A program made the translations under genes and the position numbers. Shown here in pieces: positions 3,882-63,332 of a stretch of 64,000 nucleotides of DNA. The notes under the pieces are model-generated. The model ran no database searches. It was not told the origin of the DNA and saw only the letters and a list, made by a program, of their open reading frames with translations. How positions within the stretch are numbered: the stretch's first letter is position 1; every line of letters begins with the position of its first letter. The DNA comes from a virus. The DNA is taken from IMG/VR virus record IMGVR_UViG_3300042549_001429, positions 1 through 64,000 of that record. One strand, 5' to 3'.

Positions 3882-4216
3882 TGAAAGACGCTTGCTATAA
3901 AAAAGTAAAAGCATCTTATGATGTGTTCCCTTCTGCTAGGGCTTCTCAAGCTATTGCTAAATGTCGTAAGGCATCAGGCAATGTAAGGAAGTCAGAGGAG
4001 GGTACAAGCCTAAAGCGTTGGGAGAAGGAGAAGTGGCAAGACACTAAGAGTGGTAAAGCCTGTGGAGCCGGAGGAAAGAATGAGTACTGTCGTCCAACGA
4101 CACGAGTGTCTTCAAAGACACCAAAGACCAAGAGTGAAATTAGCCCGTCAAAACTTGCAGCAAAAAAGGCTGAGAAGTCACGGGTAGGTATGGGAAATAA
4201 AGTTTCAAAAGTTTAG
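3881..4216 (+). CDS. DUF5872-like small basic protein
   Basis: 111 residues. The N-terminus (CYKKVKASYDVFPSARASQA then IAKCRKASG) matches my memory of DUF5872, found in phages and giant viruses and of unknown function. The remainder is basic, with WEKEKWQDTKSGKACGAGGK then NEYCRPTTRVSSKTP. The VSSKT stretch is encoded by one copy of the dispersed 16-bp palindrome at 4106-4121. The -7 box for the next gene begins immediately after the stop. Confidence 0.65.
   Translation: MKDACYKKVKASYDVFPSARASQAIAKCRKASGNVRKSEEGTSLKRWEKEKWQDTKSGKACGAGGKNEYCRPTTRVSSKTPKTKSEISPSKLAAKKAEKSRVGMGNKVSKV
4106..4121. repeat. Dispersed 16-bp palindrome, copy 1
   Basis: GTGTCTTCAAAGACAC: 7-bp arms around a 2-nt centre, inside the preceding coding sequence and read in frame as VSSKT. 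Confidence 0.85.
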
Positions 4217-27045: not shown

Positions 27046-27077
27046 GGAGGGTGTCTTTAAAGACACTCTCCTTTTTT
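27046..27077 (+). terminator. Strong terminator after the major capsid gene
   Basis: A stem of at least 10 bp (27046-27055 with 27062-27071) built around the perfect palindrome GTGTCTTTAAAGACAC (27051-27066), followed by a T-run at 27072-27077. It is a variant of the dispersed 16-bp element used as a terminator. Confidence 0.85.
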
Positions 27078-39260: not shown

Positions 39261-42200
39261 ATGAACGAGTTAGAGAAATTGTATAACGTATTGTTTCGTG
39301 AAGGAAAGACATCAAAGTCATTCCAAGAATTTCAAACTCAATACGCTAATGATAATGCGTATAGAGAGAAGGTTTATGAAGTTGTTCTTAGAGATGGATT
39401 TACCGATAAAGACAAAGAAACTTTCTTCTCAGTGTACAAACCATCGTCTAGTGTTCAGTCACCTGCTGCTCAGTTGCCTGTTGCTGAGGAAATAAAAAAA
39501 AAAGAAAGTACTACGGCATTACCATCGGCAGATGGTGGATTGGCGCAACAAGGGCCTAAAAACCGTGCTCCATTATTTAAGCCTGAAGGATTTGATAAAC
39601 AAATGCCTACTGCTGCAGACGCAACCTTCGTCAAGAAACCTAAGTTAGATTTAGTAGAAAAGAAAGTAGCAACAGCTGTAGATGATAGAGCTCTTGAGGT
39701 AGAAAAAAGAAAAGCCGAAGACCTATTTGATAAGCAGACTGTAAAGCCACGAGTAGACCAAAGCGTTTACTTGAAAGAAAGGCTTTCTAATATCAACAAG
39801 AACCTTATTAACAGGGAGGAAGAATACGTTGTCCCTGAAATGCAGTATCAATTCGGAGACTTAGGATTTAAGTTTGAAGAGACAGGTGCGACCGGTGACT
39901 TTATGAAAGTGGTTGCCCCTAATGGTAAAACAATAGAAGTGTCTTTAGATAACTTCCTTGACTCATCATCTGAAGCAGAGGCAAACAAGCTACAAAGTTT
40001 TATCAAAAACAATACTCCTCAAAAGGGATTGTTTGTGCTTGAAAAAACAATGAGAGAACAGGACAAAAAGTTCAACTCTCAAAAGCAAGTCGATGATGAG
40101 ATTAAAAAAATCAACGCAGATGTAACTGCTTTGAATCAAAAGCAGAAGAACTTTTTATTAAAGAAGACTGCATACGAAAACGAGATAGCAGAGTTAGAAA
40201 AGACACCTGCTTCACAAAGGAATACCGAGCAATTTAATGCCAAGCTAAATCAGTTAGAGCAGCGAAGAGCTGCAATGACCGAAGAGGTTCAGTCTATTCT
40301 TGGTGAAGAGGAAGCAATAAAAAATAAAGGCAAGGCACTAGATACTTCTGTAGGTAAGTACACTATCGCAAAATCAAAGCAAGGGACTTGGGGTGGAGGT
40401 ATATGGGATTCGTTTCTTGGTGGTATTGGCAAGATGGCATCTGCCGCTGCGAGCACCACTATTGATATAATGACAGAGATAGCCCCTGCAGGTTTCGGAA
40501 TGAGTCCTCAGGATGTTAAAAATGTAACCATTGAAAAGGCTGCTAAGATTGGCGTTGCTCCTCCTACAGCAAATCAAAATATTGAAGATTGGAAAAAGAC
40601 ATTGACCCCTCAGCAATTGAATGATTGGGAGGATGAGATGGATGATTACATAAAAAAATCTTTGAAGAAGGAGGTTCTACCTTCTACTCGTGTTGGTTTA
40701 AAAACATTGGCAGGAGACCCTGATACCACGCTTGAATGGGAGAACCTAAAGAAGCAGGGATTTTGGGGTGGTGCTTTTCTAGGATTAGCAGAATCACTTC
40801 CTGCCATGATAGGCGGCTCCGGTCCTGCAGGATGGGCTCAGAGAACAGCACAGATGTATGGTCAAGTGTCAGATGGATTGGCTCAAGAGATGGAGAACGA
40901 CCCTGAGTTTGCAGACATATCAGAGAATGAAAAGTTAGCAATCACTTTACCAATTGGTATTACCTCTGCTGTGTTAGAAGCTTACGGTTTAAAAAATGTG
41001 TTAGCAAGCACCGGTATAATCAACAAAATTACAATGTCCGCTTTAGGTAAAGCGGGGAGAGGTGTTGGTGCAAAGTCATTTAGAGAGCTAGTAGAGAACG
41101 AGGTTCAGAGTAGATTACTAAAAGGAACATTGATTTTAGGGGCAGCAGGTCTTGCTGAAGGTGAGACAGGTGCGCTTCAAGAAGTTTCTGAAACCACATT
41201 CAAAGCAATCTACAATGAAATTAAGGGGAAGGATATGTTTGAAACCCCTGAATCAGCGTTGGATTTTGTAGAGAATGTTGTTGTGGCAGGAGCGCAAGAA
41301 GCCGTTGGTGGATTCGTGTTGGGAGTGCCGTCTTCTGTAAGTGCCGCTTATAGTGAGAAAGGATTTCTCAAAATGGACGATAATGTCTTCAGGACATTTG
41401 AGCTCATGGCTAATGATGAGACACTGCAAAGTGCTTATATAGCCAAGCTGAAAGAGAAGATTGCGAATGGCGAAATAACCGTAGAAGAAGGTAAGAATAA
41501 GTTAAATGACTATCGTAATTCAGTTGGCTTATTCAGACAACTACCTGATGGCTTAACCACTCAGCAGAAGAAAGAGGCGATGAATCTTTTGAAAGAGAAA
41601 AGAGATTTAGAGCAGTACGTAAACGGTAAAGATGCTTCTTTAGTTAGCCGTCAGAAGAATAGAATCAATGCTATCAATGAAGAGCTTACAAAAATATCTG
41701 AGCAAGATGGTGGGCAGGTTCAATCAGAGACAACTCCTGAGGCTACAAAAAGAAGAGAAAGAATTGTAGAGTTACTCAAGGTGCTCGAAGATGACAATAC
41801 TGCCATCGAATACGATACCTCAAATAAATTGCCTTTAGAAGAAAGGAACAAAGTAATTGAAGAAATAAAAACCCTTAAAGCAGAAGAAGATGCCGTTCAA
41901 AAGCAAGCAACAAGTCAAGTACCTGTACAGTCAGGAGCCGGAGTTAGCCAAGAAGTGGCGCAAGGAGAACCCCAAGCAGAACCTCAAGTCGCTACCCAAG
42001 AAGGTGTCCAAGAAGAAGTAGTGTCTTCAAAGACACGGGTCAACATTGCCCCGTTCTTTAATACAAAAGTTGAGACAGTACAAGAGGCTGAGCAATTAAG
42101 ACAGGCTCCTGAATACAAGGCGTATAAGGAGACCTTGGTTAAACTTGCTGAGCAACTTGGTATCCCGGGTATAATTATTGACGATGTTATCGGTGGTTAC

Positions 42201-45200
42201 AAGAATGAGTCGGGTGAAGAGATTGTAGAAATTTCAAATCAGATTACGTTTGAGAATGCTACCTTAGACCAAGTCGAAGAATATGCGGCTATGATAGCTG
42301 CCCTTGCTCCTGAGGTTCAAGAGGCTTCTATTGCCGCTCAGTATGTAAACGAAGGTGATGCCACGCACAATGCAAACGAGTACCGATTTAAAGTAAACAA
42401 CATTGACAATGCAATAAAAGCATTGAAGGGGGCAGGTATAACTGACTTTAGCATAAACGAAAACGATAGCACTGTAACATTTACTGATGTTTTTGACTTC
42501 GCAGATGCTCAACTTCAAGATAAAATCGGTAAGTTTGCAGAGTTATTAGACGAAAATAATACAACTTATGAACAACAGCAATTTAGACCAACCGAATCAA
42601 GGTATGTCGACAAGGGAAAGAGGAAAGAAATTATTAGAAGAGTTAAGAGCGATGGGGCCCGACCTGAGTCTCGTGGGCAAGGTTTCAATGAGGCCGTTGA
42701 GCAGGCAATCCAACGTGACGCAGCCTTCCAAGGAACAACCTATGAAGAATACTCAGGAGCCAAACCAAAAGGCCCTGCAGCAGGAAACAGACTCTTCAAT
42801 GAGCCAATCAAGGCAGTTGCGGAAATTGCGAATAGATATTATCAACGAGCGTTCGGAACTAAGAGACCTGATTTCAAAGGGACAAGACAGCTCGACAAAG
42901 CAAGAGCCAAAAGGATAAGCGATGCCTTTGATGCAATGAAGCATTCGCCAAACGACCCTCAGGTTCGTGCGGCATACAATGCTTTGGCTAAAGAAACCAT
43001 TGCTCAATACCAAGCATTTTTAGATGCAGGCTATGTTGTTGAGATAAACAATCAAGAGCCTTATGCAAATTCTCAAGAGATGATTGATGACTTGAGAAAC
43101 AACAAGCGTATCAAAATATTCTCTACAGAGTCAGGATTCGGAGATACTCCAATCACTGCTAAGCAAAGAAAAGAAAACCCACTTCTAGCTAAGACTAAGT
43201 TTACTGATGTGAACGGGCAGCCTATGCTCGTTAATGACTTGTTCCGTGCGGTTCACGACTTCTTTGGACACGCTGAGTTAGGCAACTCATTTGGTCCACT
43301 AGGAGAAGAGAATGCTTGGAACGTGCACGCACGTATGTATTCTCCGTTGGCAAGAAGAGCAATGACCACTGAGACACGTGGTCAAAACTCATACGTAAAC
43401 TTCTCAGGAATTAACGAAGAGGCTGACAAGATAAGAGAGCAATCAAGAAAACTTCGTGAAGAAGGTAAGCTTGAGGAGGCTCTAAAATTAACAGATGAGA
43501 TTTACGAGAAGACTTCTTTCGCAGACCAAAAGGTAGGATTACTACCTGAAGAGTTCTCTCAGATAGATGAAGAGGTTGTTGCTGAACCTGTGGCAGAACC
43601 GGTGGTAGAAGAAGAGGTAACAGAAGAGTTTGTTCCTATATCATACGGAGACATTACCGGGGCTGCATTTACCAAGGAAAATGCAATTGACTACGAGGAG
43701 GATACTAGAGAAGATACTAACGGAAGACAGTACACTTATTTATCATCAATAACCATGGAGGTTGTGGATGGTAATGGGGAAACTGTTGGCACAATCACCA
43801 AGCTATCTGATGGAGAGGGATTACTTTCATTCACAGCAGAAGACTTAAATGGTCGTACTGTTTTAAAAGGAAAGGAGTTCCCTACACTAAGAGATGCTAA
43901 AGTTGCTCTTGCTGAAGTCACCAATAAGATTCGTCAGAAAGAATTTGATAAGCAGCAGAAGGCTGTTACCAAAGAAAGAGAAGCAGCTAAGTCTAAAGCT
44001 GACAAGGCTAAGGCTCGTGAGAAGGCTAAGCAAAAAGCAAAGGAGCCACAGGTTGAAGAGGAAGTAGTTGAGGAAGTACAAGGCAAGATGGACGAACTTC
44101 TTGAGCTTGACCCTAAGCAAAAAGGCACCGGTCAAAAGATTCTCGATGGTCTTGACAGCATGATTAAAGACATTGAGAAGTTCGAGAAAGGAACTCTTGG
44201 TGTCAACATTGCTCTTCCAATAATGAAGGGTATCCTTCAAACTATTAGAGCCTTGGTTCAAGCCGGGATGACTTTGCAAGAAGCCATAAAGAAAGCAGCG
44301 AAGGACAGCGGTACAACCGTTAAGCAGGTTGTAAATGGTATCAATGCCATTGGACAGATTGCTCCTATACAAGAAGCATACGATGCGCTGATGGCTAAAG
44401 CGGATGCATTAATCGCCCGTCAGAAGTCAAGGGGTATTGCTGACAAGAAGATTGTGTCCAACTTGGATACAATGATTCGTAACTCAGATGTCTACAAGAA
44501 TGCCACTGATGCACAGCGTAAGATTATGGAGCGTGAGGCACGAGTGAAGATGGGTGTCGGTCCACGTAAGGCCGCATCAATCGGACGTGTTATTGGTGTT
44601 CTGAAAGACATTACAAACGTATCAAGACAAGAGAAGCTACAAATCATATCAAGGATTCGTGAGCTGTCAAGAGATGTAGCAAAGGATTTGGCTCAGGAGA
44701 TTAAAGACCTAGCTAAAGAAGGCAAGATTACTGCTGTTCAAGCGGCTAATGTTATTGCTAGATTTGGTAATGTCAATCTATTAAATGAGATGTCTGTGTC
44801 CAATTTTGTGGACTACATGGCTAAGGTTTTTGCTGATGCTGATTACGATAATAAAATTAAGGGGGCTAGAAGTAAGATTGCAAAAGCAAGAAATAACATA
44901 GCCACTAAGATTGGTATCGCTGATGGGCTAATGCTTCCATTACAGAAACTATTTTCAATTAACCCTGAGCTTATACCGGACGCACAACTTGAGCGCTACC
45001 TAGAGCTTCTTAAAATGTTTTCTGCAAGTGACGCTGTTCTCACGCTTGAAAATAAGGTTGCTGTCAAGAAAGATGTAGACGCTATCCTTAAAGATATTGA
45101 CGCAGAGCAATCAAAGGCTGATGAGTTGGCTGAGATATTTAGTAATTCTAAGAACCAAGTATTTAATGATGAGGGTGATTTAGATTACGCTGCATCATTA

Positions 45201-48200
45201 AAGAAGATGGTTAAGGAAGGAGATATAACAGAAGAGGATGCTGAACTTATGCGTAAGTATAAGCAAGATATAATCCCTCAGGTTGAACCTACTCCATTGA
45301 GTGACGAAGAGATTGCAAAAAAGAAAGAAGAGCAAATTGCTGATTTGAAAAAAGCCAAGGTAGTAACCGATGGCCTTCCATCAAGAGATGAGAATAGACT
45401 AGCAAAGAGATTGGCTGATTTGATTGCAAATACTTCAAAGGAAGACTTAATGAAGTTGAGTCTTACTGACCTAAAGAATTTGTTGAAAGTAGTTAACAAC
45501 ATAAACAATGGATACCTCCCTCACTATGCACAAATAATGGTGGAGAAAATCAATGCCATTAAATACGGTAAAATTCTTGCAGCTGCAATTAAAGCGGCCA
45601 AGCCTTTAAAGTTCTCTGAACTATACTCAAGGTTTAAGGCTGCTATTATTCGTAGTCAGAAGGGTGGTATTGCTGAGATGGTTAGAAGAAACCCTCTCTA
45701 CTATATTGACCAAGTATTCGGTGACTTCAAAACTAAAAACATATTTGAGGCACTGTTTGAGCAGACCGCAGAAGCTGAAGCGAACTTCAAAGCTGAACTT
45801 AAAAAGGTTCAAACCATATTGGAAAAGGCTGAAGCAAAAGTTGCCAAGTCTTTCAATCTAAACCCTGACGAGACTTTGATGTCTAAGTTCAAGATGATGA
45901 CCTATATGATTCAGCTTGAGTATGAGTCAAACAAAGGTAGCGAACAGGTTAACCCTGCTGCCGCTTACCTTAGGGAGACCATCAAACATATTGACGGAGG
46001 TAAGTCAAGATTCGGTGAGCGTGATGCCAATATGCTCCAAGATATACTTACCAATTATTCTAAAGATGGAGAGATAGATAATGAAAAACTATTCAACTCT
46101 TTCAACCAAGCCGAGAAGGATGCTATCAGTGATATTAGGAAGGTCAACGAGTCTTTGAAAGATAAGGCTCAGTACACTGCTGCGATTATTCGTGGTGATG
46201 CTATCGACCCATTAAATAACTACGTACACTTGAATGTGCTTCACGATACGGAGCCGCTCGATGTAAGTGCTGCTACTGACTTCTTGAACCAAGCAAACAA
46301 CTCACGTAGACCATCAACAAAAGCTAAGTCTTTAATATCAAGAACTAAAGGCGCTAAGCCTTTGAACTTCGATGTATTTGCTTCTGCTCAGCGTGGCGCT
46401 AAGTTTGTCATATTGGATTACAACTTGACCGAGCCTATCCGTACTGCACGCAGAACAATGAATCAGGCTACTGCTGAATTAGAAGAGCAGGGAAGAATAC
46501 CTAAGATGCAGAGGGATGTTAAGAACGCAATTGACGGAGCGTTTGAGGAAGCAGTAAGCAATCTACTTACTAACTCTATACTTCAGAACTCACTTGCTGA
46601 CGAGGCGATTGACTTTATAAGCAAGCAAGGGTATCGTGCAGTTCTTGCAGGTACAGGAAGGTTTGCTGCGGAATTAACCTCAAACATTTCTTATGCGATA
46701 TTAGCAGACCCGAAGGCATTCACTACAGGTGCAAAGTATAAAGGTTTGATTATGTCAACGCTTGCTCCTGCTATCATGGAGAATGTAGGAAGCAAGCAGA
46801 CCAACAGGATATTCCCTAACACCACATTGTCAGGAAGTTTTGTTGATACCTCTATCCTAAGCCAAGCAACAGGCATTCAAGGCACGAGCTCAAAGAATCC
46901 TGTGCTCAACAAGATGCAGCAGATATACAACCTTACAGGTAAAAAGTATCAGAATGTTATCGAGTTGACTGCAGATACTTTAATCTCTACTCCGGATAAA
47001 CTCGTGATGAGACCGATGTGGTTTGGTGCATTTGCTAATGAGTTTAAAAAGGCATCAGGCAGTGAGGTTGACTTCGATAAGATAGCAGCAAACGACAAGG
47101 CTTATATGGATGCCAATCAAGATGCAATCCAAAAGGCCAAGAGAGCAGCAGACCAAAAGTCAGTGATGACAGGTGCTACAGACAATGCCTTTATGGGAAT
47201 CCTAAAAGGAACTGTAAAGCCTAATCAAAGTTTCTCATCAAGAGCGTTCAATAACTTCAACAACTACATGACTCGCTTCTTGATATTTGAATATGTTACT
47301 GCACGTACAGCCATTTATGCAATGGTTGGAGACGGCTCATTATCTAAGCGTCAGGGAGCCGCAATGCTCGCTGCTGTAGCCACACGTATGACTGTGTACA
47401 CATTGCTTTCTCAGATGATGGCAAATGGTATCATGGGATTGTTTGGAATAGGAGACGATGAAGAGGAGGATGAAAAATCATTGATGCAAAAAATCGGTCA
47501 GTCTCTTACAGGTACATTTACTTCGCTATTGATTGGTCGTGACTTTGGTAATGCCACTAAGTTGGTAATCAACTATGGTCTTGAGGAAATCAATGAGAAG
47601 CACCTTGACTTCCTAAGAGAAGGAGAGTACGACCCATACAAAGATGGAATCGCTTACTCAATAATTCCAAGAGAGGACAGACCTGATGATAACTTGGGCA
47701 ACCTTCTTATGAATATGACCGGTTCACTTGGCCCGGCATACAACACCGCTAATCTTATTTACAAAAACAGAAATAGGATTGTAACGGGAGAGACAGAGAA
47801 GAAAGAACTTGATGCTATTGAAAGAGAAGACCGAACAGTTAAAGAACGTATCCCACTAGAACTCTTAGGAAACTTTGGTTTGATTCCTTTTTACAAGGAT
47901 GTAAAGAAGATGGTAAATAAATCAATCTACGCAAGCATCAAAGAAGCAGAGAGAGTAGCAGAGAGAAACAAGCGAAGAGATACTGACTTGCTTGGTGGAT
48001 ACGAGAATAAGACTGACCTCAAACGCTATAATCCTGAGCTATACGAGAAGAACTTTGGTGAAGGGTCAGAATGGTACGAGTCAACCAAAGAAGAGCGTGA
48101 GGCTAAAGAAAAAGAGGCCAAGGAGGAACAGAAGATAAAAGACAGGATGAACAACTATACTCCTGAAGGTGAAGGTGGCTTTGGCTCCGCAGGATTTGGA

Positions 48201-48266
48201 AAAAAGAAAAGCAAGAAGAAAGGTTCAGGTGGAGGCTTTAAGGCTAAGAAGTTTGGAGGCGACTAA
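39261..48266 (+). CDS. 3001-residue giant virion/polyvalent protein
   Basis: The longest gene in the window. Residues 1-450 are charged helices, and about 480-760 carry hydrophobic segments (GAFLGLAESLPAMIGGSGPA). A central domain (about 1140-1400) contains GFNEAVEQAI, then FRAVHDFFGHAELGNSFGPL with EENAWNVHARMYSPLARRAM. I recall this domain from large polyvalent phage proteins; HDFFGH (1332-1337) is a plausible metal site. Long coiled coils and a conserved helical C-terminal half follow, then a Gly/Lys tail. By position it is the gp16-like injected protein. Convergent with the 48263 gene (4-nt overlap). No RNA polymerase signature was seen. Confidence 0.7.
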   Translation: MNELEKLYNVLFREGKTSKSFQEFQTQYANDNAYREKVYEVVLRDGFTDKDKETFFSVYKPSSSVQSPAAQLPVAEEIKKKESTTALPSADGGLAQQGPKNRAPLFKPEGFDKQMPTAADATFVKKPKLDLVEKKVATAVDDRALEVEKRKAEDLFDKQTVKPRVDQSVYLKERLSNINKNLINREEEYVVPEMQYQFGDLGFKFEETGATGDFMKVVAPNGKTIEVSLDNFLDSSSEAEANKLQSFIKNNTPQKGLFVLEKTMREQDKKFNSQKQVDDEIKKINADVTALNQKQKNFLLKKTAYENEIAELEKTPASQRNTEQFNAKLNQLEQRRAAMTEEVQSILGEEEAIKNKGKALDTSVGKYTIAKSKQGTWGGGIWDSFLGGIGKMASAAASTTIDIMTEIAPAGFGMSPQDVKNVTIEKAAKIGVAPPTANQNIEDWKKTLTPQQLNDWEDEMDDYIKKSLKKEVLPSTRVGLKTLAGDPDTTLEWENLKKQGFWGGAFLGLAESLPAMIGGSGPAGWAQRTAQMYGQVSDGLAQEMENDPEFADISENEKLAITLPIGITSAVLEAYGLKNVLASTGIINKITMSALGKAGRGVGAKSFRELVENEVQSRLLKGTLILGAAGLAEGETGALQEVSETTFKAIYNEIKGKDMFETPESALDFVENVVVAGAQEAVGGFVLGVPSSVSAAYSEKGFLKMDDNVFRTFELMANDETLQSAYIAKLKEKIANGEITVEEGKNKLNDYRNSVGLFRQLPDGLTTQQKKEAMNLLKEKRDLEQYVNGKDASLVSRQKNRINAINEELTKISEQDGGQVQSETTPEATKRRERIVELLKVLEDDNTAIEYDTSNKLPLEERNKVIEEIKTLKAEEDAVQKQATSQVPVQSGAGVSQEVAQGEPQAEPQVATQEGVQEEVVSSKTRVNIAPFFNTKVETVQEAEQLRQAPEYKAYKETLVKLAEQLGIPGIIIDDVIGGYKNESGEEIVEISNQITFENATLDQVEEYAAMIAALAPEVQEASIAAQYVNEGDATHNANEYRFKVNNIDNAIKALKGAGITDFSINENDSTVTFTDVFDFADAQLQDKIGKFAELLDENNTTYEQQQFRPTESRYVDKGKRKEIIRRVKSDGARPESRGQGFNEAVEQAIQRDAAFQGTTYEEYSGAKPKGPAAGNRLFNEPIKAVAEIANRYYQRAFGTKRPDFKGTRQLDKARAKRISDAFDAMKHSPNDPQVRAAYNALAKETIAQYQAFLDAGYVVEINNQEPYANSQEMIDDLRNNKRIKIFSTESGFGDTPITAKQRKENPLLAKTKFTDVNGQPMLVNDLFRAVHDFFGHAELGNSFGPLGEENAWNVHARMYSPLARRAMTTETRGQNSYVNFSGINEEADKIREQSRKLREEGKLEEALKLTDEIYEKTSFADQKVGLLPEEFSQIDEEVVAEPVAEPVVEEEVTEEFVPISYGDITGAAFTKENAIDYEEDTREDTNGRQYTYLSSITMEVVDGNGETVGTITKLSDGEGLLSFTAEDLNGRTVLKGKEFPTLRDAKVALAEVTNKIRQKEFDKQQKAVTKEREAAKSKADKAKAREKAKQKAKEPQVEEEVVEEVQGKMDELLELDPKQKGTGQKILDGLDSMIKDIEKFEKGTLGVNIALPIMKGILQTIRALVQAGMTLQEAIKKAAKDSGTTVKQVVNGINAIGQIAPIQEAYDALMAKADALIARQKSRGIADKKIVSNLDTMIRNSDVYKNATDAQRKIMEREARVKMGVGPRKAASIGRVIGVLKDITNVSRQEKLQIISRIRELSRDVAKDLAQEIKDLAKEGKITAVQAANVIARFGNVNLLNEMSVSNFVDYMAKVFADADYDNKIKGARSKIAKARNNIATKIGIADGLMLPLQKLFSINPELIPDAQLERYLELLKMFSASDAVLTLENKVAVKKDVDAILKDIDAEQSKADELAEIFSNSKNQVFNDEGDLDYAASLKKMVKEGDITEEDAELMRKYKQDIIPQVEPTPLSDEEIAKKKEEQIADLKKAKVVTDGLPSRDENRLAKRLADLIANTSKEDLMKLSLTDLKNLLKVVNNINNGYLPHYAQIMVEKINAIKYGKILAAAIKAAKPLKFSELYSRFKAAIIRSQKGGIAEMVRRNPLYYIDQVFGDFKTKNIFEALFEQTAEAEANFKAELKKVQTILEKAEAKVAKSFNLNPDETLMSKFKMMTYMIQLEYESNKGSEQVNPAAAYLRETIKHIDGGKSRFGERDANMLQDILTNYSKDGEIDNEKLFNSFNQAEKDAISDIRKVNESLKDKAQYTAAIIRGDAIDPLNNYVHLNVLHDTEPLDVSAATDFLNQANNSRRPSTKAKSLISRTKGAKPLNFDVFASAQRGAKFVILDYNLTEPIRTARRTMNQATAELEEQGRIPKMQRDVKNAIDGAFEEAVSNLLTNSILQNSLADEAIDFISKQGYRAVLAGTGRFAAELTSNISYAILADPKAFTTGAKYKGLIMSTLAPAIMENVGSKQTNRIFPNTTLSGSFVDTSILSQATGIQGTSSKNPVLNKMQQIYNLTGKKYQNVIELTADTLISTPDKLVMRPMWFGAFANEFKKASGSEVDFDKIAANDKAYMDANQDAIQKAKRAADQKSVMTGATDNAFMGILKGTVKPNQSFSSRAFNNFNNYMTRFLIFEYVTARTAIYAMVGDGSLSKRQGAAMLAAVATRMTVYTLLSQMMANGIMGLFGIGDDEEEDEKSLMQKIGQSLTGTFTSLLIGRDFGNATKLVINYGLEEINEKHLDFLREGEYDPYKDGIAYSIIPREDRPDDNLGNLLMNMTGSLGPAYNTANLIYKNRNRIVTGETEKKELDAIEREDRTVKERIPLELLGNFGLIPFYKDVKKMVNKSIYASIKEAERVAERNKRRDTDLLGGYENKTDLKRYNPELYEKNFGEGSEWYESTKEEREAKEKEAKEEQKIKDRMNNYTPEGEGGFGSAGFGKKKSKKKGSGGGFKAKKFGGD
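42021..42036. repeat. Dispersed 16-bp palindrome, copy 4
   Basis: GTGTCTTCAAAGACAC inside the giant gene, read as VSSKT in the same frame as copy 1, in a Gln/Glu/Pro low-complexity linker. Confidence 0.85.
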
Positions 48267-55154: not shown

Positions 55155-55226
55155 TTTCGTCACGCATTGGAGGTAAAAAAAGGGGAAGTTTACACTCCCC
55201 CGATTCTTATTCCTAAATGGGTTAGA

Positions 55227-59106: not shown

Positions 59107-59307
59107 TTAAGTGTTTATAAATCCTCCTTCAATTGCTATAGTCCGTCCCTTCTCAAGGGCTCTGTTTAATGATTCGTAGTCCTCAATTAATCCTTCAGAG
59201 CCATCATCGTAGACAACGAACAACTCGAATAGACCTGAACTGAATACCTCTTTTGCTTTGTCGGTTACCACGAACCACACGAAGCCGTCAATAATTTTTA
59301 CTTCCAT
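59107..59307 (-). CDS. 66-residue protein downstream of ribozyme A
   Basis: EVKIIDGFVWFVVTDKAKEV then FSSGLFELFVVYDDGSEGLI is a small beta/alpha domain known to me only as a hypothetical phage protein. It is the first gene after hammerhead ribozyme A (27 nt leader), so after self-cleavage its mRNA would begin with a 5'-hydroxyl end. Confidence 0.55.
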   Translation of the reverse strand: MEVKIIDGFVWFVVTDKAKEVFSSGLFELFVVYDDGSEGLIEDYESLNRALEKGRTIAIEGGFINT

Positions 59308-59334
59308 GATTAAATTGATTTGATTGATTAATTT

Positions 59335-59385
59335 TCCGTTTCATCCTTTCGGAATCGTCAGTCAGGACACCCATCCTGATACGGA
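59335..59385 (-). ncRNA. Hammerhead ribozyme A (type III)
   Basis: On the minus strand: stem III UCCG (59385-59382) with CGGA (59338-59335), cleavage site GUA after 59380, stem I UCAGGA/UCCUGA with loop UGGGUG, core CUGACGA (59361-59355), stem II UUCC-GAAA-GGAU, then GAAA. All invariant core bases are present. Stem II has a U-U mismatch at the core end, so it may be slower. Confidence 0.88.
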
Positions 59386-59390
59386 GGGCA

Positions 59391-59406
59391 GTGTCTTTGA
59401 AGACAC
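59391..59406. repeat. Dispersed 16-bp palindrome, copy 7
   Basis: Lies between the stop of the amidotransferase gene and ribozyme A (5 nt from it), in a position to be the 3'-terminal hairpin of the upstream mRNA. Confidence 0.88.
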
Positions 59407-59420
59407 CACCCCTGAGGATG

Positions 59421-60512
59421 CTAGGCTTGGAACCTGAGCACCTCACTCTCACTGAACCACTCACCGCAACCACTACAGTGGTAGTTCGAGAACCCGTCAT
59501 GCTCCAAGTCATGGAAGCACTCCACACACACAGGCTTCTCATTGAGTACATCAAAGTCGCAGTCATCGCAGTCATCATCAATGAAGTCTAGCAAACTCAA
59601 TTGGTATTTGTTAGCCACATACTTTGTCTCCTTCAAGTCCTCCTCCTCGTAGTACCATGCCCTGCTTGTCTCCTGAATATACGAAGTGTGAAACATCTCA
59701 CCCGCACTCGTCTCCTTGATATTGAAGTAAATCCAACAGGTCAAAGACTTACCCTTCACAACAATTGGCACCTGCTTTCTCCTGTACCAAGTCGGGTGAC
59801 CCTCCAACCTGTCAAGGTTTGCCAACACCGTACCACTCACCTTGAACACGTCCACCTCCACATTGTAACCTTTTCCACTCTCGTCAATCAAGTAGGGAAG
59901 TCCCCTGATTATAAGCGGATACTTGTTTAAGGTCTTGCCCTTACCCACGTGCTTGGAACTTGTCAGGTAGCGATTGTAATTGTTGTAGCCCTTCTTGAGC
60001 GTACCATACACCGCAACCAAGTTATCCTCCAACACATTGTCTTTGCTGTACCACACACCGTCACGCTGTGTCCACAACTCTTTGTTGTAAATCTGATACG
60101 TCCTGCTGTGCGTGTTGATAGTCACGAACCTGCACTCATGCTGCTCCAATTCTTTTTTCCACTTGTGGCGGGGCACTCTCCCGAGGCTCTCAGCCAATAC
60201 ACGTGAGTCACTCTTGTTGACATTACCCAAGCCACGTATCGTGCCATTCATCATAAGCCACTCATGCTTGTTGTCACCGCATCTGAATGGGTGCGTGTTC
60301 TCTTTGTTGATGGCACCCACAGTGGCGTACCTGAAGTGAGCAATGAAAGGGCGCTCTGTATCTAGCACCTTGTACTCTGCTGATTTGTGATAGGTCACCT
60401 CAAAGGTATCCAACCATATTACCCCCAAGCCATGAGGATTGATTCGTGCTGAAGTCTTTGCGACCTCCTTGGACATTTGCTTGCCCTTCTGTTTGATAAT
60501 GATTACACACAT
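59421..60512 (-). CDS. Class II glutamine amidotransferase / gamma-glutamyl cyclotransferase / zinc ribbon fusion
   Basis: 363 residues from the ATG at 60512, which places the catalytic Cys at position 2 (MCVIIIKQKG), as Ntn-type amidotransferases require. Longer upstream starts are therefore wrong. Domain 1 (1-160) has HFRYATVG (59-66), NTHPF (72-76) and MMNGTIRG, the class II set that hydrolyses glutamine or a related amide. Domain 2 (about 165-270) is a gamma-glutamyl(amine) cyclotransferase/AIG2-like fold with VYGTLKKGYNNYNRYL and LDRLEGHPTWYRR, including the likely catalytic Glu. Domain 3 (310-363) has three CxxC pairs, a zinc ribbon. It is flanked by palindrome copies 7 and 8. With the amidoligase at 62472 it suggests an amide or peptide-forming pathway. 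Confidence 0.85.
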   Translation of the reverse strand: MCVIIIKQKGKQMSKEVAKTSARINPHGLGVIWLDTFEVTYHKSAEYKVLDTERPFIAHFRYATVGAINKENTHPFRCGDNKHEWLMMNGTIRGLGNVNKSDSRVLAESLGRVPRHKWKKELEQHECRFVTINTHSRTYQIYNKELWTQRDGVWYSKDNVLEDNLVAVYGTLKKGYNNYNRYLTSSKHVGKGKTLNKYPLIIRGLPYLIDESGKGYNVEVDVFKVSGTVLANLDRLEGHPTWYRRKQVPIVVKGKSLTCWIYFNIKETSAGEMFHTSYIQETSRAWYYEEEDLKETKYVANKYQLSLLDFIDDDCDDCDFDVLNEKPVCVECFHDLEHDGFSNYHCSGCGEWFSESEVLRFQA

Positions 60513-60534
60513 AGATAGATTTGGTTTGTGGGCA

Positions 60535-60550
60535 GTGTCTTTGAAGACAC
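60535..60550. repeat. Dispersed 16-bp palindrome, copy 8
   Basis: In the leader between the promoter at 60579 and the ATG at 60512. Confidence 0.87.
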
Positions 60551-60578
60551 AGAACCCGATTAATAAACGAGTAATAGA

Positions 60579-60610
60579 CAAAGATAATACATAGAATGTA
60601 CATATCCAAA
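60579..60610 (-). promoter_or_regulatory. Promoter of the amidotransferase fusion gene
   Basis: TATCTTTG (60586-60579) is 20 nt after TTTG (60610-60607) on the minus strand, a good Bacteroidota -33/-7 pair. Confidence 0.65.
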
Positions 60611-60618
60611 TTTATTTT

Positions 60619-60780
60619 TTAGTAGACCTTCTTTGCCTTGAACTTTGAGCGCTCAAGATTCGGTCGGTCTCCAATGAATTTGTAGTAGGCTTTGTCAACC
60701 GCCTCCCACTTTGTGTGGGCTGTTACGTTCAGCACGTAGACAGTCCCGTAGTAGATTTTAAAGTAGTGTAAACTCTCCAT
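60619..60780 (-). CDS. 53-residue basic protein
   Basis: MESLHYFKIYYGTVYVLNVT then AHTKWEAVDKAYYKFIGDRP and a basic end (RSKFKAKKVY). It starts 1 nt after the gene upstream. The YYKFxGxRPxxxRSKFKAKKV pattern looks genuine and may be a small nucleic-acid-binding fold. No family known. Confidence 0.55.
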   Translation of the reverse strand: MESLHYFKIYYGTVYVLNVTAHTKWEAVDKAYYKFIGDRPNLERSKFKAKKVY

Positions 60781-60781
60781 G

Positions 60782-60967
60782 CTATTTGATTTTAGTTAGG
60801 TTAAAAGGGATGGCATCCAAGCCATACTCAAACGTGTAGCCCTCAGCCTCACACCTGCTAAGCAGGTCAGCGCAAGCCTCATACGTGTTGTCATCCTCAG
60901 CGAACTCGCTCAGGATTAATTGTACCTTGTAAGGTAGCGTCTCGATTACTTCAAATAAGTCTTCCAT
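60782..60967 (-). CDS. 61-residue acidic protein downstream of ribozyme B
   Basis: DLFEVIETLPYKVQLILSEF then AEDDNTYEACADLLSRCEAE is helical with a strongly acidic character. It is the first gene after hammerhead B (47-nt leader, which contains a further hairpin, UUUCAA..CCC with GGGUUGAAA). Its function is unknown; such small acidic proteins in accessory regions are sometimes inhibitors of host enzymes. Confidence 0.55.
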   Translation of the reverse strand: MEDLFEVIETLPYKVQLILSEFAEDDNTYEACADLLSRCEAEGYTFEYGLDAIPFNLTKIK

Positions 60968-61014
60968 TTTAATTTTGTTTTGTGGAGGGTTTCAACCCCC
61001 TCGGGTTTGAAATT

Positions 61015-61063
61015 CTGTTTCGTTCTTTAGAACTCATCAGCCCGGGCACACACCCGGGGACAG
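61015..61063 (-). ncRNA. Hammerhead ribozyme B (type III)
   Basis: Minus strand: stem III CUG/CAG (61063-61061 with 61017-61015), cleavage site GUC after 61059, stem I CCCGGG/CCCGGG with loop UGUGUG, core CUGAUGA (61040-61034), stem II GUUC-UAAA-GAAC, then GAAA (61021-61018). Textbook core. Stem III is short (3 bp), with a G-A pair beyond. Confidence 0.92.
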
Positions 61064-61083
61064 CCGGGAGCCGAAGCCCCCGG
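61064..61083 (-). other. GC-rich UUCG-tetraloop hairpin before ribozyme B
   Basis: CCGGGGGC-UUCG-GCUCCCGG, 8 bp with one G-U, directly abutting ribozyme B and 4 nt after a stop codon. No U-tract follows, so this is more likely a 3'-end protecting hairpin than a terminator. Confidence 0.8.
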
Positions 61084-61087
61084 ATTA

Positions 61088-61297
61088 TTACCTACCAACC
61101 ATAAACTCTTGCTCGATAGCGAAATTTTTCAGGTCACTCTTGGTGACCTCACCTATGATTAGGTGCACGTTGCTCTCCTCCGTACTCCTAGCAATGAATT
61201 GATTGGTTTTAAGCAACACGTTCCACTCATTGGCAATCTCATTTGCCTCCTGTTTTGTGCCTACAAAGTAGGTCTTCACTGAAGTAGTCTTTTCCAT
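61088..61297 (-). CDS. 69-residue protein, unknown
   Basis: SVKTYFVGTKQEANEIANEW then NVLLKTNQFIARSTEESNVH: a small alpha/beta protein. It ends just before hairpin B, so it would be the last gene of one cleaved mRNA segment. No family is recognised. Confidence 0.55.
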   Translation of the reverse strand: MEKTTSVKTYFVGTKQEANEIANEWNVLLKTNQFIARSTEESNVHLIIGEVTKSDLKNFAIEQEFMVGR

Positions 61298-61302
61298 TTT
61301 GA

Positions 61303-61845
61303 TTATTGATTGATAGTTGTCAACACTCGATTGAAGTCCTCAGGTCGCACGACCACGAAGTAATTCGGTCTATACACCCCGTCCGTATCACTCTCCCACC
61401 TTCTGTAAGGCACACCCAACGCCATCAAGCCTATCTCAATGGGCACAAGCGTGCCAAGGTCATTGCTATGCCACACCGAATACAGGGGCTTGCTATAGCC
61501 ACCCTCAGGAATCCACACGCTAGACAGGTCGAACTCAGGCTCTGCCTCAGGGATGAAGTCACCCACAAAACTTTCCACGTGCACCCACTCACCGTTCCAA
61601 GCGTGCCCGTTCAAATACCACTGCCCTTTCTTTTGCACTATGCTCACGTCAGGGATGCCGTTCAACCGCTCCTTTGTTGTTGGAGTAGGCCAACCCGCAT
61701 TGGTTATCCAAAGGCCGTCCGTCCTGAACTCAGCAATTGAATGGCCATGCAGCCAAATAGTTCGGCCATCCGTCCACGTGTTGCCGATTCGTCTGTACTC
61801 GTTGCGCAAAAAAGCGCTCACAATTTTTTCAGTTACTTGTCTCAT
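61303..61845 (-). CDS. Conserved hypothetical protein, 180 residues
   Basis: An N-terminal helix and strand set (IVSAFLRNEYRRIGNTWTDG then RTIWLHGHSIAEFRTDGLWI) is followed by GWPTPTTKERLNGIPDVSIV, QKKGQWYLNGHAWNGEWVHV and a C-terminal VWHSNDLGTLVPIEIGLMAL. I recall the TKERLNGIP...QKKGQWYLNG stretch from proteins of phages and plasmids with no function. It starts 4 nt after the neighbouring gene. Aromatic-rich domains of this sort may bind nucleic acid or glycan; not assigned. Confidence 0.6.
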   Translation of the reverse strand: MRQVTEKIVSAFLRNEYRRIGNTWTDGRTIWLHGHSIAEFRTDGLWITNAGWPTPTTKERLNGIPDVSIVQKKGQWYLNGHAWNGEWVHVESFVGDFIPEAEPEFDLSSVWIPEGGYSKPLYSVWHSNDLGTLVPIEIGLMALGVPYRRWESDTDGVYRPNYFVVVRPEDFNRVLTTINQ

Positions 61846-61849
61846 TTTG

Positions 61850-62044
61850 TTATTGGTTTTTGGTTGCTGAATAAATTCTTAATCCGTTTACTTTTTGCAC
61901 GCTCACTTGGAACTTGCTGTGAATAGCCTCAAGGCTTGCCTTGTACTTTGCCACCTGCTCGGGGGTCAAGTAAAGCAGGCGGTCGATTACGTCCTGAACT
62001 ATCTCAGCACGCTCATTGATTGGGTCTTGGTCTTTGGTTTGCAT
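61850..62044 (-). CDS. 64-residue protein downstream of ribozyme C
   Basis: QTKDQDPINERAEIVQDVID then RLLYLTPEQVAKYKASLEAI: helical, with an LTPEQ start typical of small helical bundles. The upstream in-frame start at 62104 lies within ribozyme C and is rejected. The leader after the ribozyme is 24 nt and begins AAACCA. Confidence 0.55.
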   Translation of the reverse strand: MQTKDQDPINERAEIVQDVIDRLLYLTPEQVAKYKASLEAIHSKFQVSVQKVNGLRIYSATKNQ

Positions 62045-62068
62045 AAAATAAAATTTGAAATGTGGTTT

Positions 62069-62119
62069 GCTGTTTCGTTCTTTTGAACTCATCAGGGAGG
62101 GCACTCACCCACCGACAGC
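62069..62119 (-). ncRNA. Hammerhead ribozyme C (type III)
   Basis: Minus strand: stem III GCUG/CAGC (62119-62116 with 62072-62069), cleavage site GUC after 62114, stem I GGUGGG/CCCUCC (one U-U mismatch) with loop UGAGUG, core CUGAUGA (62095-62089), stem II GUUC-AAAA-GAAC, then GAAA (62076-62073). Confidence 0.93.
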
Positions 62120-62120
62120 A

Positions 62121-62136
62121 GTGTCTTTGAAGACAC
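62121..62136. repeat. Dispersed 16-bp palindrome, copy 9
   Basis: One base upstream (transcript sense) of ribozyme C and 11 nt after the stop of the membrane gene; the predicted 3'-end hairpin for that mRNA. Confidence 0.88.
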
Positions 62137-62147
62137 CACTGCCACGC

Positions 62148-62366
62148 CTAGAACCTCTCAGGCTTGTTGCGCTCGGGCTTGCTGAAAAGCAGCACCCCCG
62201 CAACAAAAAGCAGGGATAACTCAGCCAAGAAAAACACAGCCAAGTAAAGCAGGCTAATAAAATTGAACTCAGGTAAATCCTGCACAAGGGCAACACTAAC
62301 TCTGAAGAGGGACACAGCCACAAAAATGTAGCAAAGGGTAAGGGTAATTTTCTCGAACTTTTTCAT
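62148..62366 (-). CDS. Two-helix small membrane protein, downstream of ribozyme D
   Basis: 72 residues. Helices are ITLTLCYIFVAVSLFRVSVA and FISLLYLAVFFLAELSLLFV with AGVLLF, and a charged end (SKPERNKPERF). It lies between ribozymes D and C, so it would be released as a single-gene mRNA. No family is recognised; a role in the host envelope is possible. Confidence 0.6.
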   Translation of the reverse strand: MKKFEKITLTLCYIFVAVSLFRVSVALVQDLPEFNFISLLYLAVFFLAELSLLFVAGVLLFSKPERNKPERF

Positions 62367-62390
62367 TGTAATATGGTTTTAAATTGGTTT

Positions 62391-62442
62391 GCTGTTTCGC
62401 CCTTTGGGGCTCATCAGGCGGGGCAACACACCCCGCTACAGC
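62391..62442 (-). ncRNA. Hammerhead ribozyme D (type III)
   Basis: Minus strand: stem III GCUG/CAGC (62442-62439 with 62394-62391), cleavage site GUA after 62437, stem I GCGGGG/CCCCGC with loop UGUGUUG, core CUGAUGA (62417-62411), stem II GCCC with loop CAAA and GGGC, then GAAA (62398-62395). All invariant bases are present. Confidence 0.94.
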
Positions 62443-62464
62443 GGAGGGGGATTGAGCCCCCTCC
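62443..62464 (-). other. GC-rich hairpin before ribozyme D
   Basis: GGAGGGGG-CUCAAU-CCCCCUCC, 8 perfect pairs, directly abutting ribozyme D and 7 nt after the amidoligase stop. No U-tract. Confidence 0.8.
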
Positions 62465-62471
62465 CTTTGCA

Positions 62472-63332
62472 TTACCGCAGGAATCCTCGGATGCTATCGC
62501 CCTCCTCGCCTGTGTTTATGTAGGCTTGGAACGCCTTTGCTAGTTTTAGCACCTCCTCAGCCTTTTGGGCGTCCCCGTTGTACATGGAAAGGATAACAGG
62601 GCGCACACGCTTGATAAATGAATCGAAAGAGCCTGTGGGATTATTTACCGAAAAGTCAACCAAGTGGTAAAACAATTCGTAGCGTCTCATTACCTGCTTT
62701 ACGCTCTCAAAGCGGGACGGCAAGCGGAACTCAAGGCAAGAGCCCTTCACCAAGGCAACTTGGTAGCGGTCACCGTAGTGCAACGGGTCTAGGCGCTTGT
62801 TGCTCCCGCAGTACCTGTTTGTTAGCCTGTTTCTGAAGAGGGCAAGCACCACGCCTGCATTTTTGCGCACCTTGCAAAGTAAATCCGTCCCATCCAAGCC
62901 CTCGCAGGCAATTGTGATGTGACCCCCGCAACGTCTATCTGAGGGGCTGTAGCGGTCATCAATGATTTTTTCCGCTTTGTAAATCATATCGTACACCTTT
63001 GTCCTCCATTGCCCCGCAGGGAGCAAAGGGAGCACATGGGTCACCGCCTCATAGCCGCAGGATGCATCCCGCTCAAAGCCGCAAAACAATTCGTACTCCC
63101 GCACCGCATTGCGGCTCAATTGATTTTTCTCAATTTCAAAGCCTATGGTGAACCTTGAGGCGTATTCGACCCCGTCAAACTTTATGGCTTTTTGGTCGGC
63201 TTTTTTAAGCCCCGCAACGTCCACGCTGTATTTGGACTTATTCAAAAACAAGGGCTGTGGCTTTCTGTGATAGCCCGCTACTTCGCCTCTTTCTAGTTCG
63301 CCTGTGATTTTGTACTCGATACCTTTTTGCAT
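62472..63332 (-). CDS. Amidoligase (COOH-NH2 ligase) family protein
   Basis: 286 residues. The glutamine synthetase-like amidoligase signature is visible: FTIGFEIEKN (61-70, metal-binding Glu pair), RDASCGYEAVTHVLPL (88-103), CGGHITIA (135-142, in place of the usual GGHxH) and SCLEFRLPSRFESVKQ. These enzymes are predicted to ligate a carboxylate and an amine, using ATP. The ends of the protein are basic. It has palindrome copy 10 in its leader and ribozyme D after its stop. The nearby class II amidotransferase/cyclotransferase fusion at 59421 is the kind of partner known for this family, so a joint pathway on peptides, cell-wall or nucleotide amides is likely. Confidence 0.82.
   Translation of the reverse strand: MQKGIEYKITGELERGEVAGYHRKPQPLFLNKSKYSVDVAGLKKADQKAIKFDGVEYASRFTIGFEIEKNQLSRNAVREYELFCGFERDASCGYEAVTHVLPLLPAGQWRTKVYDMIYKAEKIIDDRYSPSDRRCGGHITIACEGLDGTDLLCKVRKNAGVVLALFRNRLTNRYCGSNKRLDPLHYGDRYQVALVKGSCLEFRLPSRFESVKQVMRRYELFYHLVDFSVNNPTGSFDSFIKRVRPVILSMYNGDAQKAEEVLKLAKAFQAYINTGEEGDSIRGFLR

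Follow-up and report, generated by a model that had tools for sequence, protein, structure and literature searches.

Clusters of hammerhead ribozymes (HHRs) flanking genes in prophages were described in 2011 by Perreault et al. (PMC3088659), who proposed transcript processing as their role and whose work also provides a precedent for such clusters being active in vivo. Here, we analyze four HHRs, each preceded by a hairpin, on the minus strand of a viral sequence of 64,000 nt, namely, positions 1 to 64,000 of the IMG/VR record IMGVR_UViG_3300042549_001429 (hereafter, the window). As in the prophages, in which several HHRs flank single genes or short gene blocks and cleavage was shown for other examples, the HHRs of the window are interspersed with single genes or short runs of genes in a phage operon. 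The first interpretation of this locus, made from the letters alone (the sequence-only reading), took a multicopy HHR series in a phage operon to be undescribed, which the 2011 publication shows to be wrong. The searched text of that paper, however, discusses no hairpin, stem-loop, or terminator beside the ribozymes, whereas here each of the four type III copies has an abutting 5′ hairpin. Neither this arrangement nor the link between positions 10.1 and 17 presented below was found in the open-access literature, which misses most subscription papers. What is new, then, is the conserved architecture of the module and the functional hypothesis suggested by how type I and type III HHRs differ; HHR clusters and the processing idea are already known.

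A related design exists in synthetic biology. Insulators of the RiboJ type, which combine an HHR with an added hairpin in the 5′ leader, raise transcript levels about twofold and protein levels two- to tenfold (PMC6206723) and thus set a precedent for an HHR at the 5′ end increasing the level of a message. In RiboJ, the ribozyme precedes the hairpin and the fragment upstream of the cut is lost, whereas in the phage module the hairpin is upstream and both products would be messages.

Four Type III Hammerhead Ribozymes in One Phage Operon

HHR4 (62391 to 62442; GUA cleavage site, G10.1-C11.1), HHR3 (62069 to 62119; GUC), HHR2 (61015 to 61063; GUC), and HHR1 (59335 to 59385; GUA, U10.1-U11.1 mismatch), all on the minus strand, matched the Rfam model RF00008 (Hammerhead_3) with scores of 43.6 bits (E = 1.9e-7), 43.4 bits (E = 2.3e-7), 35.0 bits (E = 5.2e-5), and 32.5 bits (E = 2.6e-4), respectively, in a permissive cmscan limited to the region. 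The matches span 62389 to 62444, 62067 to 62121, 61012 to 61066, and 59333 to 59387. A default Rfam scan of the window lists no HHR because all four scores are below the RF00008 gathering cut-off of 48.5 bits, which is a database convention and not a property of ribozymes. When the whole virus record (64,932 bases) was searched, there were only four RF00008 matches, with E-values of 8e-10 to 1e-6. A descriptor scan of both strands, independent of the Rfam model, found the same four HHRs and one far weaker, chance-like match; the agreement of the two approaches indicates that the four HHRs are real, rather than chance matches, and in type III order. Both the type III order and the location proposed by the sequence-only reading were thereby borne out, as were its predicted cleavage positions, 62437/62436, 62114/62113, 61059/61058, and 59380/59379 for HHR4 through HHR1. 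That reading had also staked the identification on the Rfam threshold, and here no score reached 48.5 bits; given E-values of 2e-7 to 3e-4 and the covariation described below, we consider the cut-off too strict for this HHR subgroup.

The four elements share with RF00008 the core, the helix order, the GUH cleavage site, and the loops of stems I and II, and depart from it in scoring below the gathering cut-off and in the U10.1-U11.1 mismatch of HHR1. The core nucleotides (C3 U4 G5 A6 N7 G8 A9 and G12 A13 A14, with A15.1-U16.1 and H17) are intact in all four copies, and in each of them, stems I and II are loop-closed and stem III is open, which is the type III order. Pairing and loop sizes are broadly kept, as had been claimed, with positions in loops I and II, the candidate partners of a tertiary contact, near-invariant in sequence comparisons, but there are exceptions: HHR3 has a single U-U mismatch in stem I, the standard N10.1-N11.1 pair at the base of stem II is present in HHR2 to HHR4 and replaced by U-U in HHR1, loop I of HHR4 is 1 nt longer than in the other three, and stem III of HHR2 consists of just 3 bp plus A15.1-U16.1. 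The minimum free energy (MFE) fold of HHR4 together with its hairpin recovers the exact hammerhead. In sequence and predicted structure, the four elements are type III HHRs.

Conservation and Covariation in Related Phages

A search with the protein encoded immediately upstream of HHR1, a fusion of class-II glutamine amidotransferase (GATase) and gamma-glutamyl cyclotransferase (GGCT), identified 14 related loci. The same arrangement, which the sequence-only reading had proposed to look for in related phages, recurs in 13 of these 14 viral contigs, with one to four HHRs each. Among 32 distinct HHRs from the window and the related phages, 95.4% of helix cells pair, compared with 71.0% in shuffled alignments, and double-changed cells number 127 vs. 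36.8. The covariation score is 0.711, against 0.229 after shuffling and at most 0.14 with the partners slid, which formally supports the covariation first noticed among the window copies, although the number is inflated because the descriptor used to collect the related HHRs demands pairing; the window copies were found independently by the Rfam model.

In the closest relative by the GGCT protein (contig L319; 82% identical), all four HHR junctions match. At one orthologous junction compared across ten phages, the order of stop codon, hairpin, and HHR is kept, and the hairpin sequences are quite different. The arrangement is common: a pattern scan of IMG/VR for HHRs matched at least 120 stretches, and one to four copies are also found in related records. 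No HHR was found in MW202828.1, the nearest named relative; a BLAST search with HHR3 and its hairpin against named phages gave chance matches only; and there was no type II candidate among the fetched contigs. These comparisons bear on whether the HHR motifs could be inactive remnants, as might be suspected from scores below the Rfam cut-off and from the imperfect folding of two copies in isolation. Intact core nucleotides, helices that covary across phages, and junction positions shared with L319 for all four copies argue otherwise, making decay the least probable of the explanations considered here.

A Hairpin Abuts Each Ribozyme

In all four copies, the stop codon is followed, after a few nucleotides, by a strong hairpin and then directly by stem III, a conserved feature missed by the sequence-only reading. 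On the minus strand, the hairpin at HHR4, GGAGGGGG-CUCAAU-CCCCCUCC (62443 to 62464), lies 7 nt past the UAA of a gene tentatively called amidoligase-like; that at HHR3 (62120 to 62144) is built on GUGUCUUCAAAGACAC (62136 to 62121), with an extended stem, and its isolated MFE fold can invade stem III; that at HHR2, CCGGGGGC-UUCG-GCUCCCGG, occupies 61064 to 61083; and that at HHR1, GGGUGGUGUCU-UCAA-AGACACUGCCC, extends from 59386 to 59411.

Two of the four hairpins contain the 16-mer GTGTCTTCAAAGACAC with an extended stem; the other two are unrelated. This near-palindrome (16 bp; TTTAAA in one copy) occurs ten times in the window (at 4106, 19987, 27051, 42021, 51034, 55615, 59391, 60535, 62121, and 63350), far more often than expected by chance, both at gene junctions and within open reading frames (ORFs), and is oriented mostly with transcription. 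The corresponding region of MW202828.1 contains 14 copies of GTGTCGTTAACGACAC. Because several copies lie inside ORFs, the interpretation of GTGTCTTCAAAGACAC purely as an RNA hairpin was dropped; it is possibly an operator of a phage repressor, co-opted to serve as a hairpin in front of HHRs.

The Hairpin Association Is Specific to Type III Ribozymes

Four scans of viral contigs yielded 192 type III HHRs, of which 108 were nonredundant, and 307 type I HHRs, of which 181 were nonredundant; the hairpin pattern came to light in the first scan and the test used the enlarged set, so that discovery and test are only partly independent. Over the 40 nt immediately 5′ of the 108 type III HHRs, the mean MFE is -13.6 kcal/mol, vs. 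-7.6 for shuffled sequences, with 82% at or below -8, and sequence deeper upstream averages -5.8. The same 40 nt before the 181 type I HHRs are at background (-6.2 vs. -5.3 shuffled). In 74 of 108 type III HHRs, but in only 10 of 181 of type I, a hairpin ends no more than 1 nt from the ribozyme (p = 5e-31). Two later sets are independent of the first. In 81 type III HHRs with U-U or A-A at positions 10.1/11.1, none counted before, the mean MFE was -11.7 vs. -6.1 after shuffling; the other set, 105 type III HHRs from bacterial genome contigs, provided a weaker replication (-10.4 vs. -6.2) against a higher background. These comparisons show a hairpin association that is specific to type III HHRs.

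Might the hairpin act as an insulator, keeping translating ribosomes off the ribozyme or preventing it from misfolding with upstream coding sequence? In every window copy, it does come after the stop codon and before the ribozyme. For type I HHRs, however, the median distance to the stop codon is 1 nt and the hairpin is absent despite an equal need, so that insulation seems quite unlikely.

The presence of the hairpin depends on an upstream gene: 67 of 74 type III HHRs that follow a codirectional gene ending within 100 nt have one, compared with 2 of 7 that have no gene within 400 nt (p = 6e-4), a comparison based on crude gene calls and, in the no-gene class, on these seven ribozymes. In the cultured Flavobacterium phage elemoF, an HHR is located in an operon leader with a divergent neighbor and, by eye, is not preceded by a strong hairpin, which fits, anecdotally, a dependence on an upstream message.

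The same data speak to a structural explanation, under which the hairpin would be part of the ribozyme, stacking coaxially on the short, open stem III to stabilize the active fold, with no role after cleavage. Stacking agrees with the lack of any gap between hairpin and stem III in 64 of 90 cases and with the slightly longer stem III of type III HHRs that lack the hairpin (4.8 vs. 4.1 bp; p = 0.009). Nevertheless, the hairpin is mostly missing where no gene lies upstream of the HHR, even though stem III is just 4 to 5 bp there, too; the typical hairpins of 8 to 12 bp far exceed what stacking requires; and the same type of hairpin is also found with a U-tract in place of the HHR. The zero gap favors coaxial stacking, and the hairpin's dependence on an upstream cistron speaks against it; as a full account, stacking appears unlikely, but it has to be taken seriously as a rival or as an additional benefit.

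The scans revealed other HHR occurrences as well. Type III HHRs are found in many genome contigs of Patescibacteria (CPR; L333 to L441), with up to four per 8 kb, and a boxA-like GTTCTTT lies within 40 nt after 39 of 126 HHRs in Patescibacteria contigs and 0 of 206 in viral contigs. In the cultured Cellulophaga phage phi18:3 (NC_021794.1; L445), two small genes are separated by a type I hammerhead that is not annotated; it lies upstream of ardA, a gene that also adjoins HHRs in the 2011 study (PMC3088659). Another unannotated type I hammerhead is located between a terminator-like hairpin and a tRNA cluster in Xanthomonas phage RiverRider (NC_048703.1; L446).

Relationship to Intrinsic Terminators

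Like intrinsic terminators, the phage modules place a stable hairpin 4 to 9 nt past the stop codon at the predicted 3′ end of the message; unlike terminators, they contain no U-tract, and the end would arise by RNA cleavage. The mean number of T in the 8 nt following HHR-linked hairpins is 2.7, and no U-tract was found there. A terminator scan of the coding strand called none of the four HHR hairpins and did find a real-looking terminator at 55201 to 55182. The HHR hairpins thus lack the succession of hairpin and U-tract that defines intrinsic terminators. That they are nevertheless ordinary terminators, with the ribozymes only trimming ends or being passengers, would accord with their strength and position and with the one copy of the hairpin core that does have a U-tract; yet termination at these sites would cut off the downstream genes, and together with the missing U-tracts and the terminator scan, this renders the explanation very unlikely.

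Comparison of GTGTC palindromes points to a hairpin type with two uses. Those followed by an HHR have a mean of 4.3 extra stem pairs, compared with 0.67 for those without an HHR (p = 4e-24), and three or more extra pairs are present in 45 of 58 HHR-linked palindromes vs. 17 of 196 others. On the plus strand of the window, downstream of a structural gene, the same GUGUCUUUAAAGACAC hairpin (27046 to 27077) has an extended stem and a U-tract (TTTTTT) and thus resembles an intrinsic terminator; contigs L054 and L343 likewise contain an extended hairpin with a U-tract, an apparent intrinsic terminator. One hairpin type therefore appears with either of two putative ways of RNA end formation.

A Model for Formation of 3′ Ends Within an Operon

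The order of elements in the module is stop codon, 4 to 9 nt, hairpin, 0 to 1 nt, ribozyme (with the predicted cut just 3′ of the hairpin), ~24 to 47 nt, and start codon. We propose that the ribozymes cut the polycistronic phage mRNA between cistrons while the transcript is being made. The upstream message would then end in a stable hairpin plus a tail of 5 to 7 nt with a 2′,3′-cyclic phosphate (the distance from hairpin end to cut is 5 to 7 nt in 73 of 86 cases), and the downstream message would begin with a 5′-OH and a structured 5′ end formed by stems I and II. Cleavage at all four sites would release internal pieces of 323, 1055, and 1679 nt from the window operon. The hairpin would shield the new 3′ end from exonucleases, and because the end would arise through cutting of the RNA, transcription could continue, the module providing a terminator-like 3′ end without stopping transcription. 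From ribozyme structure, covariation, junction position, and the type III-specific hairpins, we infer cleavage in the cell, 3′ protection, and an effect on expression; that the module cuts mRNA and leaves hairpin-capped, protected 3′ ends within the operon is, in our assessment, moderately probable.

The difference between the two ribozyme types is accommodated by this model. In type I HHRs, the closed stem III stops 2 nt short of the cut, so that cleavage would cap the upstream piece with this hairpin, 2 nt from its 3′ end, and no extra hairpin would be needed; the median distance from stop codon to ribozyme is 1 nt for type I, compared with 31 nt for type III. A cleaved type III HHR, by contrast, would leave a bare strand of stem III unless a separate hairpin precedes it, and under this model, the extra hairpin occurs exactly where it would be required. 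More tentatively, and with chances we put somewhat short of even, phage type III HHRs with their hairpins might be a general mRNA 3′-end-forming element, a self-cleaving counterpart of the intrinsic terminator, with type I HHRs using their own stem III hairpin. In metazoan histone mRNAs, a stem-loop is likewise retained a few nucleotides before an endonucleolytic cut, which there is protein-catalyzed and eukaryotic; the resemblance is an analogy only and implies no shared ancestry.

Several observations weigh against 3′-end protection. The zero-nucleotide gap is tighter than protection needs and fits coaxial stacking as well, as does the longer stem III of hairpin-less HHRs; the effect in genome contigs is weaker (61% vs. 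40% background); the test of dependence on an upstream cistron involves crude gene calls and few ribozymes; and the MFE structures of HHR2 and HHR3, predicted in isolation, lack the complete hammerhead. The HHR3 hairpin is able to extend into the strand of stem III (62113 to 62144), masking the cleavage site, and because of this pairing, HHR3 may, judging from the predicted folds, be a slower, switchable, or regulated copy.

Core Variants and Nucleotide 17

The U10.1-U11.1 mismatch of HHR1 has already been reported as natural and active (PMC3088659), and the subfamily to which HHR1 belongs was seen repeatedly in viral loci. In a scan neutral at 10.1/11.1, 30 of 75 type III HHRs had U-U and another 5 had A-A; A-A was found in 32 contigs. 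Patterns with U-A, C-G, U-G, or C-A matched 8 stretches, of which seven were newly fetched; only one of these seven gave a hammerhead fold. The column most strongly coupled to the 10.1/11.1 pair is nucleotide 17 (mutual information 0.71); the next best values, all within stem II, reach 0.28. In held-out loci, U-U occurs with A or U at position 17 and with C in 2 of 44 type III HHRs, and A-A follows a weaker rule (6 U, 4 C). An absolute rule (GC-C, UU-A, AA-U) was rejected, being broken for AA-U by the held-out scans. The pattern suggests a strong bias that couples the 10.1/11.1 state to the cleavage site; shared ancestry could contribute, and many genomes carry both states.

The Phage and Its Operon

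The window encodes TerL, a portal protein, and structural proteins and thus derives from a tailed phage. The terminase shares 83% identity with its counterpart in MW202828.1 (Podoviridae sp., Manatee Spring) and ~47% with those of Flavobacterium elemo phages, and Cellulophaga phages match too; by these similarities, the virus is a podovirus related to Flavobacterium and Cellulophaga phages, presumably with a Bacteroidota host. No tRNAs were found in the window. The phage encodes its own GroEL-like chaperonin (394 to 2019) and a single ORF of 3001 aa (39261 to 48266), an unusual length for a 65-kb phage.

The HHR series is located in the minus-strand early/replication module, from the amidoligase-like gene to the genes downstream of the GATase/GGCT fusion, with genes for SSAP, exonuclease, primase, and helicase farther downstream. 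The amidoligase-like gene (62472 to 63332), upstream of HHR4, is named tentatively because the name is based on conserved motifs and the neighborhood in phage C75C1, a Pfam search having given no match even with ten homologs included. The HHR at its 3′ junction is kept in related phages. A 72-aa ORF (62148 to 62366) lies between HHR4 and HHR3, and a small ORF (61850 to 62044) follows HHR3; the in-frame ATG at 62044 is its likelier start because the listed ATG at 62092 falls within HHR3. Next are a 180-aa ORF (61303 to 61845) with an N terminus matching Pfam Kyano_Gp96, a 69-aa ORF (61088 to 61297) immediately upstream of HHR2, a 61-aa ORF (60782 to 60967) downstream of HHR2, the GATase/GGCT fusion (59421 to 60512; Pfam GGACT, 2.4e-22; GATase_4, 1.4e-4), and a 66-aa ORF (59107 to 59307) downstream of HHR1, all on the minus strand. 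The amidoligase-like and fusion genes form a pair conserved among phages, which suggests a peptide or metabolite modification pathway.

Implications

If the model holds, the module would offer synthetic biology a natural part with which to split polycistronic messages, and hairpin context would become a signal for recognizing weak ribozyme candidates under database thresholds. Why phages carry series of HHRs has been an open question since 2011. The hairpin contrast between type III and type I HHRs and the dependence on an upstream gene suggest a testable answer, namely, that these ribozymes would provide defined, protected 3′ ends inside operons.

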